A stretch of DNA of 64,000 nucleotides from an archaeon (GTDB taxonomy: Archaea > Nanobdellota > Nanobdellia > Pacearchaeales > GW2011-AR1): positions 195,300 to 259,299 of the forward strand of contig JABHSE010000004.1 of the NCBI GenBank assembly GCA_018697035.1, in the 5' to 3' direction. Shown here in pieces: positions 10,903 through 28,912 of the stretch. The notes under the pieces are model-generated. The model did not search any database. It was not told where the DNA came from and saw only the letters and a program-made list of their open reading frames with translations. The translations under genes were made by a program, and so were the position numbers. The first letter of the stretch is position 1, and every line of letters starts with the position of its first letter.

Positions 10903-11420
10903 AAACCGTCTGGACATTCACCAATAAAAAAGAACTAGACAAAAACCAATTCATAGATTACTTCGAACGAAAAGTTTTCCGAACAATCCGAAAACATCAA
11001 CTCTTGCCAAAAAACAAAATTTTCACCCTAAAAAAAAGCCAAGATATAAACACAGCAGTCCTAAAACAAATCCTAGAAACAAAATTCCAAGTCAAACTAT
11101 TGCCTTCCAGAGAAGGTACTTACCGCAGTGCAACAAAGCCAAACACCTCAACAACTAACCTTTCAAGTGAAGCAGAAAACATATTCAAAAAAATAATCAA
11201 AGGAAACTTCGGCCACAAAACAAAACCCTCCCCACTCCTAAACTTATCAGACAAAGAAATAGAACTCTACGCCAAGCTAAAAAACATTAAAGGAACGAAA
11301 AGAAAAGAAAATAAAAAAATTCAAAATCTCTTTAAAAAGTTCTTAACAAAAAATCAAGACCTAGAAGTCAATATCCTTAATGCACAAAATCAAATTATAC
11401 CACAGAATTATTTATCTTAG
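10899..11420 (+). CDS. hypothetical basic protein, coupled to the PP-loop ATPase
   Basis: 173 aa, lysine-rich, no recognised domain. It starts in the ATGA overlap with the PP-loop gene, so it is cotranslated with it and may help bind its RNA substrate (inference). The 3' end overlaps the convergent HAD gene by 26 bp. Confidence 0.6.
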   Translation: MKTVWTFTNKKELDKNQFIDYFERKVFRTIRKHQLLPKNKIFTLKKSQDINTAVLKQILETKFQVKLLPSREGTYRSATKPNTSTTNLSSEAENIFKKIIKGNFGHKTKPSPLLNLSDKEIELYAKLKNIKGTKRKENKKIQNLFKKFLTKNQDLEVNILNAQNQIIPQNYLS

Positions 11421-12048
11421 AAACAACCTTCCGCAACCCATAAAAATCCCTCACAACATAATCAGGCCCAGCCTTCCTAATCCTCTCCAGCGTCGACCAA
11501 GAACACTTATTATGAACAGCCACTGAAACACATCCAGCCTTCTTAGCAAACTCAACATCCGAGAACCTATCCCCAACATAAACAGCCTCACTAGATTTAA
11601 TCTTCATGCGCCTAAACAATCTTCGCAACATTCTATCTTTACTGACAAACTTTTCCGCACCATAAATTCTATCAAATAAACCTTCGATACCCAAGCTCTT
11701 GATTGAAGCCAATAGAAACGAAGTCCGAGAATTACTAACAACAATCAACGATATCCCATCTTCCTTCATCTTCCAAAGCGGCTTCAAAGAAACACACGTC
11801 TTAATCTCACCAGCTGCAGCTGCACCAGTAAACCTCCGATAAAACCTATCACGAATCTCCCGAACCTTCCCGACACCAATTCCCAATTTCCGCAACATCC
11901 TTCCCATCTTAATACCTAACAAACCAAGCAACCTTCTCTCACTGAACTTATATCCAAATTCTTCAAATGTCCGAACTAAAGACAAAAAAGCAATTCCCTT
12001 ACTGTCTGAAATAGTCCCATCAAAATCCAAAAACACTGCCTTAATCAT
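11395..12048 (-). CDS. HAD superfamily phosphatase
   Basis: 217 aa. Nucleophile motif FLDFDGTIS near residue 10, motif II Ser/Thr in VVSNSRTS (about 103), motif III lysine near FVSKDRML, and motif IV VGDRFSDVEFAKKAG (about 157-171). The helical cap after motif I places it in the phosphoglycolate phosphatase-like subfamily; the substrate cannot be told from sequence. Confidence 0.85.
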   Translation of the reverse strand: MIKAVFLDFDGTISDSKGIAFLSLVRTFEEFGYKFSERRLLGLLGIKMGRMLRKLGIGVGKVREIRDRFYRRFTGAAAAGEIKTCVSLKPLWKMKEDGISLIVVSNSRTSFLLASIKSLGIEGLFDRIYGAEKFVSKDRMLRRLFRRMKIKSSEAVYVGDRFSDVEFAKKAGCVSVAVHNKCSWSTLERIRKAGPDYVVRDFYGLRKVVSKINNSVV

Positions 12049-12139: not shown

Positions 12140-13927
12140 TTACTTAATATACCCGCCTCTCTGCAACTTCCAAAGCCGGTAATACTCACCCTTCCTCCGA
12201 AGTAAGGCTCCATGCGTCCCCATCTCAACAATCTTACCTCGCTTCATAACAACAATCAAATCCGCATGCATAATCGTAGACAACCGATGCGCAATAATAA
12301 TCGAAGTCCGACCCTTCATCAACTTAGCTAAACTCCTCTGAATCTCAAACTCAGTCTCACTATCCAGTGCACTCGTAGCTTCATCCAAAACCAAAATCTT
12401 CTTGTCCGCCAAAATAGCCCTAGCTATCGAAACCCTCTGCTTCTCCCCACCGCTAAGTTTAACCCCGCGCTCTCCAACAATAGTCCGCTCCTTCTCGGGC
12501 ATCTCACGAATAATCTTATCAAGTTGAGCAAATCTAATAGCGTTCTTTACTTCTTCAGGGCTAGCACTAGGCCTAGAAAATTTAATATTATTCCAAATAG
12601 TATCGTCGAACAAAACACATTCCTGAGGAACAATACTCATAGCCCCTCTCAAAGACTCCTGTTTAAAGTCCCGAACATCCTCGCCATCAATCATAACCGC
12701 ACCCTTATCAACATCATAAAACCGATACAACAAGTTAACAAGAGTCGACTTCCCACAGCCCGAATGCCCAACAAACGCAACCTTACTCTTCGCCGGAATA
12801 TTCAAATTAAAATCCTTGAAAATCTTCCGCTTAGTATATCCAAAATCGACATCCCGAAACTCAATTTCACCATTCCCGACCTTCATACTCCGAGCTCCCT
12901 CAGCATCCCGAATATTATTCTCAACCTTCCCATAACTAAACAAATCCTGAAAATCAATAACCGATCTATGAAAACCCTGCAATCCCTCAATGAAACCCCA
13001 AATCGGTCCCATCAAACTCCTAAAAGTAGTATAGATAAAAACAATCTCTCCGACACTAAGAGCACCCTTCAAAAATCTCAAAATAGGAAACGTCAACAAA
13101 ATCACAGTCCCAATAATAATAATCGCAACCTGTCCACTCGTCAACCAAGAATAACTTCTCCAAAATTTATAATTAGTAGTCTCCGATTTCATAGCTAACT
13201 TACTAAACATCTTCGAAATCCAATTCTCCCTTCCAAAATATTTAATAGAATCTATATTAGTAAAAACATCACTAACTCCTGCCTTCTCATTATCATCAGC
13301 CACATTGGAAGCTATCTTAAGCGGTTCCTGCGTCCTCTGATAAAGAATACTAAACAAAACAAAAGACGTCATAATTCCAACTACAACAACAGCAGAAACG
13401 ATATCAAAATAAGCGATAGAGACACCAACAATCATCATCTGCAAAAATGGACCTACGAAACTATAGATAATCGCATCACTAATTCTCTCAACAGAAGCAA
13501 TTCCCCGATTCATTCTCGAAATAAGCGAACCCGTCTTATGCGTAGCATGAAACCCCTGATCCAATTTAACAATATGCCTAAAATATTTCATCTTTAAATA
13601 AGTCATAATCCTAACTTCAATCAAAGAAGAATAGAGATTCCTAAACCAAAGAGCAATTATTTCAACCACAGCATTCAAGATATATAATCCAAGAACAATC
13701 AGCAAAATAAAATAAAACTCCTCCAACCCAAGACTCCCCTCTGCAAAAAGTGCTCCCTTATCTATAATCTCCTTAAACAAAAAATTCGGCACAATATTAG
13801 TCAATCCTACAACAAAAATAGTCAACAGTAGCAGCCACATCAACCCCTTATGCCTTCTCAAAGCGCCCCAGTATTCACTAAGATTATACTTCCAGTCTAT
13901 CTTTCTACTTTCTTCATTTTTTACCAT
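12140..13927 (-). CDS. ABC exporter, fused permease and ATPase
   Basis: About 595 aa. Six membrane helices in the first 320 residues, then an ATPase domain with Walker A GHSGCGKST, signature LSGGEKQR, Walker B ILVLDEATSALD and the switch histidine in IIAHRLST. A MdlB/MsbA-type half-transporter that works as a homodimer; no second half-gene is adjacent. No C39 peptidase domain. ATG 13927 (MVKNEES) is preferred over the TTG at 13942. It is divergent from the Cys-tailed peptide gene at 14110, a possible cargo. Confidence 0.9.
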   Translation of the reverse strand: MVKNEESRKIDWKYNLSEYWGALRRHKGLMWLLLLTIFVVGLTNIVPNFLFKEIIDKGALFAEGSLGLEEFYFILLIVLGLYILNAVVEIIALWFRNLYSSLIEVRIMTYLKMKYFRHIVKLDQGFHATHKTGSLISRMNRGIASVERISDAIIYSFVGPFLQMMIVGVSIAYFDIVSAVVVVGIMTSFVLFSILYQRTQEPLKIASNVADDNEKAGVSDVFTNIDSIKYFGRENWISKMFSKLAMKSETTNYKFWRSYSWLTSGQVAIIIIGTVILLTFPILRFLKGALSVGEIVFIYTTFRSLMGPIWGFIEGLQGFHRSVIDFQDLFSYGKVENNIRDAEGARSMKVGNGEIEFRDVDFGYTKRKIFKDFNLNIPAKSKVAFVGHSGCGKSTLVNLLYRFYDVDKGAVMIDGEDVRDFKQESLRGAMSIVPQECVLFDDTIWNNIKFSRPSASPEEVKNAIRFAQLDKIIREMPEKERTIVGERGVKLSGGEKQRVSIARAILADKKILVLDEATSALDSETEFEIQRSLAKLMKGRTSIIIAHRLSTIMHADLIVVMKRGKIVEMGTHGALLRRKGEYYRLWKLQRGGYIK

Positions 13928-14109
13928 TTTACATAAATTCAACCATCGATAAATAAAACATTATAAAATATCTATAAAAAACATACTCACGCCAACTCAG
14001 TTGCCGCATATCTTATCCAGTTGAGGCCGAACAAACAAAATCCGTTAACACCGTTTATAAGTTTTTCCCTAGTAGAAAATTTTAAATACAAGGTTACCTT
14101 AAAATAATT

Positions 14110-14289
14110 ATGAAGGGGAAATATGACATAACACCATTAGGAGAGATACATAATTTTACAGCCAAAAAAGAATATGTAGCTCCAGAATATAAACTAGAAA
14201 CAACAATGACTTTCCAGTACGACGCATTAAAAAACCAAGATACAAAATATACCTGCAGACAATGTTCAAGTTGTCATGGATGCAGATAA
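14110..14289 (+). CDS. 59-aa peptide with Cys-rich tail (precursor-like)
   Basis: Small gene: it opens MKGKYDITPLGEIHNFTAKK, has an acidic middle, and ends in TCRQCSSCHGCR, four cysteines spaced CxxCxxCxxC. A TTTAAATA box at 14081-14088 lies exactly 25.5 nt before the ATG, the rule for expressed genes here. The form (plain leader, Cys-dense tail at the very end) resembles ribosomally made modified peptides, and a divergent ABC exporter is adjacent; but no radical SAM or other maturase is beside it. A simple zinc-binding peptide is the alternative. Confidence 0.62.
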   Translation: MKGKYDITPLGEIHNFTAKKEYVAPEYKLETTMTFQYDALKNQDTKYTCRQCSSCHGCR

Positions 14290-14334: not shown

Positions 14335-16458
14335 TTAAGAATTAGCCCTCTTCAACAACTCCTTCAACCTAGCCGCATCCGCACCCTTGCTCTTAACTTC
14401 ACTAACAACATAAGTCATCTTCTCTCCAATATCCTTACCCTTAACAACCTTCAAGTCCCGCAACAACTTCTTCCTAACAACATCCGAAACAACCAGCACT
14501 CCACTATCAGAATCCGACATACGCTTAGCAAAAGAAACCGTATTCCCGATACTCGTATACTTCAACTTACCTCCACCCTTCGAGGCCACCAGATCCCCAC
14601 TATGCACTCCAATCCCAAACTCAACCTTATCCTTAAACTTCTTATTATAATCATTCAACTTCTCAATAACCGCCATACCACACTTAACAGCCAAACCTTC
14701 ATTATCATAAGTCCTAGTCATAAGCGGATTAAATACAACAAAAACAAAATCCCCTCTCCAGTCAACTAAACCCTTTTCCTTCGACTCATCGACAATCTTA
14801 TGTAAAGCATCTTTTCCAGCATCCCCCAACCCCTCATGATTCTTAACTGCAATCGCAACCACACTAGACACCTGCTTCTCTCCCTTCATGACCAAAGCAG
14901 ACTCTGCCGTCATCTTATTCCCCTTCGTCAAATCAACCATCGTCTTATCCGTTCCACTATAATTCTTAACATCAAGCCCCTGAACAGCAGGAGATTTATT
15001 AGTAAAATTCAAGCTATCATCCATATGCGCTTTAACTTTATCAGGCACCTTCTCTTTAATCTTATCTCCAATTTGTGTCCCAACATTATGCAATTGAGCA
15101 ACTTTCTTCTTACCTGGCATCTTTCCCCAAAGTTTAGAAAAAAAACCATCACCAACGACCTTAGTCTTTCGGTACCTCATCAATAACATAATACCAACTC
15201 CACCCAAAATCAAAATCAAAAAAATCCAAAACAAACCATATCCACTAAAAAACCCCTTCTCTCTAATATCATCAATAGAAACTGCATTCCCCGTCAATAG
15301 AACCCGTTTACTTAGGGAAGTTTCACCATCATTTACCAAAACTTCATACTCACCATTAGGAGCATCAACATTAAACTTCCGAACCTCGTCAACACCGATA
15401 TTCAACTCCAAAGACATGATATCATCACCAATAGTAACATCAATAGTTCTATTATACAAAACATTTCCAATATTTTTAATGGTCAACACCGAATCCTCCA
15501 AGTCAAATTCAATCTTCTGCAAGCCTATCATCTCAAACTCTCGAACATCACTCAAAGAATCAAACGAACTAAAAATTTTCCAAGTCCCAGCACTAGAATT
15601 CAAAACAAAATCAATATCACTAAATTCTCCAGCCTGAACATTAGCCTCAATAAATTCATCATTCGGAGAAACAATCCTCAAAAGAACATTGCCTTCCATT
15701 CTAACACCCGATTGATCAAAAAGCTCAACACCAATTCTAAACTTCTCTCCAGGTGTAGCAACAACATCAGCCAAACTCATAACTAAAGAAGATGCAACTT
15801 GATTAATCTTATAAGAAACACTTCCCAAACCCTCATTCAAAATACCATTAGAGTCAACATCATAGGCACGAATATCCAAAGAATAGAAACCACTCTCAAT
15901 AGTTTCAGGCATAGAAAAAGTCTCAATAGCAATACCACCCTCAACGGCCTTACTAAAAATACTAGCACCAGTCGCATCAATAAATCCTTCCAACAACTCA
16001 CCATTTGCTTTAACGGCTTCGACATTAACACTAATTACCTCACCAGGATTATATGCAACCTTATCTAAAGAAACACTAACATCAACATCTCTAGTAACTG
16101 AAAACACTTTTGTCGACGCGGCACTCGTGCCAATAGAAATAACAACCTGGCAATTTCCAACAATATCACTAAGATTCAGAATCTCTAAATCATCCAAACG
16201 CAAGTTCTTATAAAAACTCCAAGAAGATTCGTCATCTAAAGAAAAAGAACTAGCAGGAAGCCTAACCAAATTCGTTGTCTTATTTCCGCACGCCAAATTA
16301 AAGTTCAAATTCCCACTCCCAGCTCCAACCAAACCGTCAACCGAAACATCCAACCTATCTCCCAAATTATAAACATCAAACGGCTCTGAAATAGAAATCT
16401 CAGCCAAAACACCAGAACTCATTAAAACAAAAATTAATAATAACACGAGCTTTTTCAT
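14335..16458 (-). CDS. membrane sensor-like protein with degenerate class III cyclase domain
   Basis: 707 aa. Signal peptide (MKKLVLLLIFVLMSSGVLA), about 390 residues of predicted beta-sandwich exterior, one membrane helix (about residues 405-425, GLFWIFLILILGGVGIMLLM), a basic linker, and a cytoplasmic C-terminal domain with FGIGVHSGDLVASKGGGKLK and YTSIGNTVSFAKRM, hallmarks of the adenylate/guanylate cyclase fold. The first metal Asp seems absent (VVAIAVKNHEG at the expected place) while GD in WRGDFVFVVF remains. Likely a signalling or scaffold domain rather than an active cyclase. TATATAAA at 16480-16487 fixes the start. Confidence 0.78.
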   Translation of the reverse strand: MKKLVLLLIFVLMSSGVLAEISISEPFDVYNLGDRLDVSVDGLVGAGSGNLNFNLACGNKTTNLVRLPASSFSLDDESSWSFYKNLRLDDLEILNLSDIVGNCQVVISIGTSAASTKVFSVTRDVDVSVSLDKVAYNPGEVISVNVEAVKANGELLEGFIDATGASIFSKAVEGGIAIETFSMPETIESGFYSLDIRAYDVDSNGILNEGLGSVSYKINQVASSLVMSLADVVATPGEKFRIGVELFDQSGVRMEGNVLLRIVSPNDEFIEANVQAGEFSDIDFVLNSSAGTWKIFSSFDSLSDVREFEMIGLQKIEFDLEDSVLTIKNIGNVLYNRTIDVTIGDDIMSLELNIGVDEVRKFNVDAPNGEYEVLVNDGETSLSKRVLLTGNAVSIDDIREKGFFSGYGLFWIFLILILGGVGIMLLMRYRKTKVVGDGFFSKLWGKMPGKKKVAQLHNVGTQIGDKIKEKVPDKVKAHMDDSLNFTNKSPAVQGLDVKNYSGTDKTMVDLTKGNKMTAESALVMKGEKQVSSVVAIAVKNHEGLGDAGKDALHKIVDESKEKGLVDWRGDFVFVVFNPLMTRTYDNEGLAVKCGMAVIEKLNDYNKKFKDKVEFGIGVHSGDLVASKGGGKLKYTSIGNTVSFAKRMSDSDSGVLVVSDVVRKKLLRDLKVVKGKDIGEKMTYVVSEVKSKGADAARLKELLKRANS

Positions 16459-24971: not shown

Positions 24972-25610
24972 TCACAAAGAAACTCTACCCTTACCAGCTT
25001 TCTTAGCCCGATACAAAGCCTTATCCGCTTTATCAAAAGAACTCCTAAAATCATCATCTTTTTTAACTAAGTAAAGTCCAAGACTAACTGTTGGACTAAC
25101 AATAACATCTCCCTGACCATGAACCCTAGAAGTAGAAACCCTCTCAACAGCCTTCTTCGCAGCAGTAACAGCATTCCCATTTGAAACACCAGAATATATA
25201 CCAGCAAACTCATCCCCAGCATAACGATAAACATCATCCCCAGCACGACCACTTCCAAGCCTAAACGCAATTTCCCTCAAAACATCATTCCCGACCAAAT
25301 GCCCATAGCTATCATTAACCGACTTAAAATCATCAACATCTGCAATCATAATCGCAAAAGGAACCTTACTACGATTCAATAAAGAATGAGCTCTACCAAA
25401 ATCCCTCTTAAAACTATCCTTGCCATAACGACCAGTCAAACTATCAAAATCCCCCTCTTCCTTAAGTTTAGCAATAACCAAATCCAAATATCCATGATCC
25501 TTAGTGCCTAAAACGCTAAACAATTTATCAGCAGCTGCTTCCACAATATCATTATTAGAAGCAGACTCACCAAAGCCCAGTTTTTGAACCAATTTACCTA
25601 AATCTTTCAT
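24972..25610 (-). CDS. GGDEF-domain protein (AGDEF variant)
   Basis: About 212 aa. An N-terminal helical part (about 60 residues) and a GGDEF domain: DSLTGRYGKDSFKRDF, metal site IMIADVDDFKSVNDSYGHLVG, signature RYAGDEFAGIYSG and C-terminal ADKALYRAKKAGKGRV. Diguanylate cyclases are rare in archaea; the first Gly of GGDEF is Ala here, a variant still active in some bacterial enzymes. No I-site RxxD is obvious and there is no sensor or EAL partner. ATG 25610 is chosen because TTTATATA (25632-25639) is centred 25.5 nt from it. Confidence 0.85.
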   Translation of the reverse strand: MKDLGKLVQKLGFGESASNNDIVEAAADKLFSVLGTKDHGYLDLVIAKLKEEGDFDSLTGRYGKDSFKRDFGRAHSLLNRSKVPFAIMIADVDDFKSVNDSYGHLVGNDVLREIAFRLGSGRAGDDVYRYAGDEFAGIYSGVSNGNAVTAAKKAVERVSTSRVHGQGDVIVSPTVSLGLYLVKKDDDFRSSFDKADKALYRAKKAGKGRVSL

Positions 25611-25722
25611 ATAATCCATAGTCGAAAAAACTATATAAATCTTTCGATTAGGCGTCACAATATAGTAACAACACCCCAATCACAACAAACTCTATAAACC
25701 GAAATCTCAAACAAGGAATAAA

Positions 25723-28288: not shown

Positions 28289-28912
28289 CTACCTCTCCCC
28301 ATAAACTAAAATAGCACCATATCCAGCAGCCGCCCAAGCATTAACAAAAACCATCCTATCTACCTCTCTATTCTTCACCTGATTATTCGGCCCAGAATCA
28401 TGATAAAAAACCTTATCCCCTTCTCCACCAGTAAAGGTAACACTATGCCCCTGATGACAATCATCTCTACCAATAATCTTATTATGATCAATCCAAACAA
28501 TTGGAATACCTCCCTTATCAACACAAGATTCCAAATCTCTAGAAAACAATCTCTTCCTTTCAAAAATACCATATTCATGCACTCTCTTAATTGAACCAGA
28601 GACAATAGGTATATCCACATGCTTCAAAATTTTCTCCGCATTCTTCCCAAACCGTTCTCTAATATCTCCCTCATTCAAGGAAGGGGACAAATCATCTTTA
28701 GAATACTGCCGAACATCCAAACCTAAATTATAAAGAGCACCCGAAACCTGAGGCATCCAAGTCCAATATCCCTCCTTCCTACCAGTCATCACATCAAGCT
28801 CAGCCAAACTAACATTCCAATCATAAAAATGCTTCAACACATTTCTCATAGCAATCTGCGCGCACTGCTTCCCATCTCCACAGTCCTCAAAAAACGGAAT
28901 ATCCTTTATCAT
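28289..28912 (-). CDS. C39-like papain-fold peptidase
   Basis: 207 aa, no signal peptide. FEDCGDGKQCAQIAMRNVL holds the probable catalytic Cys (about residue 16), QGHSVTFTGG the His, and FYHDSGP the Asp, the order used by peptidase C39-like proteins. Usually linked to peptide processing or envelope work. Start ATG begins MIKDIPFFEDCGDG. It is a stand-alone protease, not fused to the ABC transporter at 12140-13927. Confidence 0.78.
   Translation of the reverse strand: MIKDIPFFEDCGDGKQCAQIAMRNVLKHFYDWNVSLAELDVMTGRKEGYWTWMPQVSGALYNLGLDVRQYSKDDLSPSLNEGDIRERFGKNAEKILKHVDIPIVSGSIKRVHEYGIFERKRLFSRDLESCVDKGGIPIVWIDHNKIIGRDDCHQGHSVTFTGGEGDKVFYHDSGPNNQVKNREVDRMVFVNAWAAAGYGAILVYGER

Follow-up and report, generated by a model that had tools for sequence, protein, structure and literature searches.

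The window, by which we mean the whole 64,000-nt stretch of DNA analyzed here, belongs to an 809-kb genome of 4 contigs (G000) and carries on its forward strand a short gene for a peptide of 59 amino acids, MKGKYDITPLGEIHNFTAKKEYVAPEYKLETTMTFQYDALKNQDTKYTCRQCSSCHGCR, followed by a stop codon (Table 1). A preliminary description made from the letters had called the gene short and its promoter exact, and this was borne out: the TATA box TTTAAATA is centred 25.5 nt upstream of the ATG, a spacing that would fit a leaderless archaeal mRNA. Counting both strands, the window has 11 copies of this octamer. Between the TATA box and the ATG lies the odd palindrome AAGGTTACCTT, a possible operator, which has a single occurrence in the window. 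A CxxCxxCxxC motif had been placed directly before the stop codon; the motif is indeed at the end of the peptide (CRQCSSCHGCR), but one Arg intervenes before the stop. The divergent ABC exporter gene adjoins the peptide gene as described, and the ORF said to encode a C39-like protease 14 kb away exists as well, although its domain match is sub-threshold.

Table 1. Features of the peptide locus, its neighbourhood and the maturase-like gene of the same genome (window coordinates unless another reference is given)
Feature	Position	Strand	Basis or remark
HAD-family phosphatase	11395-12048	-	neighbour; left edge of a gene-gain site common to members of the genus
ABC exporter, MsbA-like, without C39 domain	12140-13942	-	Pfam PF00664 and PF00005, NCBIfam; judged to lie outside the unit
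Archaeal TATA box TTTAAATA	14081-14088	+	sequence
Odd palindrome AAGGTTACCTT, possible operator	14090-14100		sequence and place
Cys-tailed peptide gene	14110-14289, stop codon included	+	ORF plus homologues
N-terminal docking/leader-like motif Y22-x-x-P25 ... M33-x-F35	14173-14214	+	conserved columns in alignments A2, A4 and A5
C-terminal tail C-x-Q-C-S-x-C-H-x-C-R	14254-14286	+	invariant C, Q, C, S, C, H, C in alignment A5
Protein with cyclase-like domain	14335-16458	-	neighbour; right edge of the HAD-cyclase gene-gain site
C39-peptidase-like protein, marginal match	28289-28912	-	PF11814, Peptidase_C39-like, E = 0.053
Orphan radical-SAM/SPASM maturase-like gene	L351 5601-6911; G000 contig C3, about 164.1-165.4 kb	-	best match TIGR04280

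The 59-aa gene is real and more than a chance frame, since its homologues were found at E values of 1e-29 to 1e-24 (7.7e-16 by single sequence) and a DNA pattern spelling out exactly the tail and its stop codon matched 70 stretches of IMG/VR, versus 0 for a control pattern in which the Gln and His codons were swapped. In a search of 200 genomes from the order, only G000, G008 (where two peptide genes stand in tandem), G012 and G172 gave strong matches, and a match to the tail only was found in G037, giving five related DPANN genomes in total. Weak matches (E above 1e-4) in genomes other than G037 were, where inspected, unrelated frames or larger proteins. In G037 (L010/L017), the tail CRQCSGCHGCG is kept in a frame without an ATG just 3′ of a run of eight A residues, which may reflect a sequence error, decay or slippage. 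A pattern that also required the stop codon matched only G000 and G037 in a class-wide sample of 378 genomes, which left out G008, G012 and G172. The cellular homologues share Y-x-x-P, M-x-F-like residues and the tail C-x-Q-C-S-x-C-H-x-C-R.

Homologues with conserved tails, the search for which had been proposed at the outset, were also found in viral metagenomes: 55 loci of IMG/VR matched a profile of the five cell peptides and 51 loci a 32-row profile. Pooling of the viral loci gave 56 distinct peptides, and Y..P precedes the tail in 52 of them, a count taken before any selection for Y..P (the viral rows of alignment A5 were chosen for Y..[PA]). The family peptides are mostly 38-75 residues long and share one layout, in which a short N-terminal motif (Y-x-x-P ... 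M-x-F) is followed by a variable spacer and, at the C-terminus, by one fixed Cys tail that hardly varies. Of the viral peptides, the one nearest to that of the window (67% across the alignment, 71% in its best segment) is found on two short contigs, L194 and L249, which also carry an LSm-domain protein and a YqaJ recombinase and may be an archaeal virus or the edge of a provirus. The near-invariance of the tail is real, its strictness being partly set by the search pattern C.QC..CH.C with which the rows of A5, an alignment built from DNA references, were found; looser searches also gave CKMCSSCHGCR (L235) and CRQCCSCHGCR (L357). Searches with the leader alone led back to the same tail: 12 of 12 stretches matching the DNA pattern for YEKPxIxKxxxMxFP end in it, as do 20 of 22 matching that for YxKP-x7-MxFMF, the other two being short hydrophobic frames that resemble the family only in pattern. 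Because 32 of these 34 leader-only stretches, which come partly from near-identical contigs and are not all independent, run into this one tail, the two parts of the peptide are coupled.

No model of Pfam, NCBIfam or PHROGs matches the peptide, isolated phages and plasmids gave no credible match, and nothing below E 0.6 was found among PDB sequences. The tail string was likewise not found in the literature searched, outside which most subscription papers lie. Archaeal RiPP loci, some of them in Nanoarchaeota, have been surveyed (PMC12144867) and phage small proteins have been reviewed (PMC11323111), and the family is not mentioned in the passages of these two papers considered here. The peptide family is previously undescribed.

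Across 58 sequences, the codons for Cys, Gln, Ser and His in the tail vary synonymously, showing that selection acts on the amino acids. With four Cys codons near the stop, and with the next gene beginning within the tail in G008 and G037, the peptide might be thought of as an attenuator leader peptide by which the supply of tRNA-Cys controls downstream genes, but Gln, Ser and His are conserved as much as Cys, the distal leader motif is conserved too, TGC and TGT are both freely used, and the next gene in the window (14335-16458) lies on the other strand. Neither conservation restricted to Cys codons nor a regulated gene that always follows was observed, and we find such a role scarcely credible.

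The exporter next to the gene raises another explanation, already hinted at in the preliminary description, namely a secreted, bacteriocin-like peptide whose maturation would depend on the ABC exporter together with the C39-like protease. The divergent adjacency in G000 would agree with it, as would the small ORF that is divergent from the exporter in G003, G005 and G015 too; those ORFs, however, are different ones with an acidic end and no Cys tail, and in G002 no small ORF is evident at that place. The exporter orthologue is absent at E 1e-60 from the peptide bearers G008 and G012, and of the 58 genomes among 181 of the family that have the exporter at E 1e-140, G000 alone has a strong peptide hit, the other 57 having none. 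Moreover, the exporter has no C39 domain and the protease match is marginal (E = 0.053); neither an exporter with a C39 domain nor a separate linked C39 protease was found across the relatives, and a GG/GA cleavage motif is neither present in the window peptide nor conserved in A5. Export-linked maturation is thereby largely refuted and, in our judgement, highly improbable. The acidic-end ORFs themselves (L162, L163 and L164 in G003, G005 and G015, e.g. MNEDTLYAPYVKDKKIITGEPLDDEQE) are alike in G003 and G015.

The gap between the HAD gene and the cyclase-like gene holds different cargo in different genomes: the exporter in G000 and G002 (near the gap in G003 and G015), a TrmB-family gene with two kinase-like genes in G008, receiver-like genes in G009, and little or nothing in G001 and G005. 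The cyclase-like protein at its right edge (707 aa; its C-terminal part matches adenylate/guanylate cyclase, PF00211, E = 3.1e-5) is retained close to the HAD gene across much of the genus. Elsewhere in the window, an ORF at 24972-25679 on the reverse strand encodes a GGDEF diguanylate-cyclase domain (PF00990, E = 9.9e-29), here in a DPANN genome.

In G008, G172 and G037, a TrmB-family gene is transcribed divergently from the peptide gene, and a near-palindromic site resembling GTTGTCATGTTACATGACTAC accompanies the pair. Members of this TrmB subgroup (L052-L057, L082-L087) are 49-53% identical, and the site occurs once per genome, at the regulator's own divergent promoter. The regulator was rejected as an explanation of the peptide: G018, G030 and G032 have both the regulator and the site but no Cys tail, and in G000 and G012 neither the site nor a close orthologue of the regulator was found.

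The viral loci lie mostly in the head and packaging modules of many unrelated, uncultivated tailed phages. For about 41 loci, 133 neighbouring proteins were compared with PHROGs, which assigned up to 8 to one terminase family and 7 to one portal family, besides further terminase, portal, head and morphogenesis families (these families overlap), and Pfam agreed in finding portal, prohead protease, terminase and capsid proteins. At least one gene for a terminase or for a portal, head, protease or tail protein was present within about 3 kb in approximately 32 of the 41 loci, as counted by eye, unscored and with no background rate. A tblastn comparison with isolated phages identified two anchor neighbours as phage terminase and portal. 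The contigs range from 22 to 61% G+C, and Shine-Dalgarno-like sites precede part of the viral starts. In otherwise unrelated phages, the peptide gene stands alone beside differing terminase and portal families and at differing, non-homologous insertion points, just as is expected of a phage moron, and we are confident that it represents an undescribed peptide family of this kind. Among the neighbours themselves, L240:2888-4777 encodes a fusion of a phage portal protein with a class I methyltransferase domain; class I methyltransferases occur in four viral loci, methyltransferase-like genes are also close to the peptide gene in L208, L215 and L231, and a DUF5131 neighbour is present in L198 and L211.

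The Cys tail, the adjacent exporter and the C39-like protease had led to the view that the gene resembles a modified-peptide precursor, and a likeness to RiPP precursors stands, as the gene is short and has an N-terminal recognition sequence, a variable spacer and a C-terminal core; roles for the exporter, the C39 protease and a linked maturase are not supported. Neither of the two outcomes named beforehand as speaking against that view was encountered, for the tail did not turn up within zinc-finger proteins and it is conserved. On the other hand, the linked maturase that had been looked forward to was not seen: no neighbour, modifying enzymes included, is common to the cellular or the viral peptide loci, and no modifying enzyme was found nearby or demonstrably acting in trans. 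Only 1 of 30 long viral contigs, some of which may be fragments, encodes a radical-SAM protein over the cut-off. When the radical-SAM genes of G000, G008, G012 and G172 were read (with two frames left out, in genomes only 80-84% complete), the sole group common to the four was, to judge from its sequence, TYW1-like, a housekeeping group. The set of RRE, transglutaminase-like protease and Asn-synthetase-like cyclase that marks lasso peptides was not found either; no lasso genes were recognised at the cellular loci read, and an Asn-synthetase-like neighbour is present in only one of the viral loci, L239.

Maturation might nevertheless take place in trans, an RRE-bearing host enzyme reading the leader and cross-linking the Cys tail while phages carry the precursor only. 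Besides the leader, variable spacer and fixed Cys core, three observations would suit this. The Y-x-x-P motif is one that RRE domains of lasso-type systems read in leaders (PMC13381572), a parallel drawn from likeness of motif. G000 has, about 44 kb from the peptide gene, an orphan radical-SAM/SPASM gene with the geopeptide maturase TIGR04280 as its best match (244.9 bits; cut-off 400), beside which no small Cys-rich ORF or precursor is evident, and G008 encodes a TIGR04084-family radical-SAM/SPASM protein over the cut-off. Against this stand the lack of a common maturase at the loci, the lack of a counterpart of the G000 SPASM gene in the radical-SAM genes that could be read in G008, G012 and G172 (again with two frames left out), the 29 of 30 long viral contigs without a radical-SAM gene over the cut-off, and the pairing of one leader with one core, with no diversity of cores. 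We therefore regard a precursor matured in trans as possible but doubtful. Its particular form, in which unrelated phage lineages and a few DPANN archaea have only the precursor and a widespread host enzyme turns it into a single fixed product, seems unlikely; if true, phages would be spreading a precursor that lacks a pathway of its own.

Since no neighbour is conserved across the loci and nearly all long viral contigs are without a radical-SAM gene, the likeliest working form of the peptide would be the ribosomal product itself. We tentatively prefer to read the peptide as a mobile phage moron that docks by a motif near its N-terminus and works by a tail rich in thiolates, acting in an unmodified, metal-binding form, an interpretation to which we give slightly less than an even chance. 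The family itself very probably travels mainly as a stand-alone late-region gene of tailed phages and occurs as cargo in a few DPANN genomes. The Y-x-x-P ... M-x-F motif would dock on a partner present in very different hosts, at which the peptide would be aimed, and past the spacer, whose length varies, the work would fall to the fixed tail C-x-Q-C-S-x-C-H-x-C-[RK]-COOH, its four thiolates, perhaps joined by the His, serving as ligands of a metal, for instance Zn, or of an Fe-S cluster. This last part, the unmodified metal- or cluster-binding form, is suggested by the Cys/His pattern, no relative having been solved, and we put it forward with at least the same reserve. AlphaFold2 (51 sequences, without metal or partner) predicted one short helix but no fold (pLDDT 70, about 54 in the tail, pTM 0.24), and with no match in Pfam or the PDB sequences either, the peptide corresponds to no known zinc-binding model or fold. 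We know of no standard zinc-finger spacing with C-x2-C-x2-C-x2-C within ten residues. Gln and Ser next to the Cys residues do not vary, a constancy that exceeds the needs of plain metal ligation and would fit an enzyme-made core; the present data do not separate metal binding from maturation in trans.

With a tail kept almost residue for residue in phages of 22-61% G+C and in archaeal chromosomes, the peptide likely acts on something common to very different cells. Lying outside the protein-family libraries searched and having no credible hit in isolated phages, the peptide would be missed by annotation. At about 40-60 residues it is small enough for whole synthesis, which makes metal binding, modification and target directly testable.

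Compared with known systems, the peptide resembles lasso-type and other RRE-dependent precursors in being short, with a basic N-terminus, a Y-x-x-P motif with a hydrophobic residue two positions further on, a variable spacer and a functional C-terminal end; unlike in those systems, no RRE, protease or cyclase locus was seen at the peptide loci, the leader continues into M-x-F[P/M], and the tail has four Cys residues. With the radical-SAM-matured Cys peptides (SCIFF, geopeptide, Clo7bot, ranthipeptides) it has in common a small precursor with a Cys-rich C-terminal core, and a geopeptide-maturase-like enzyme occurs elsewhere in G000, whereas a linked maturase and a match to an NCBIfam model are lacking here. 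C4-type zinc-binding small proteins likewise have four Cys residues (and His) in pairs, but here C-x2-C-x2-C-x2-C is compressed into ten residues at the very C-terminus, with no Pfam match and no predicted fold. Unlike phage morons and small late-region proteins, the peptide has no PHROGs model and is without a credible match among isolated phages and plasmids. What it shares with phage morons is its nature as a stand-alone small gene with varied insertion points in the head and packaging modules of unrelated phages; what distinguishes it from them is one fixed tail across very different phages and archaeal chromosomes.
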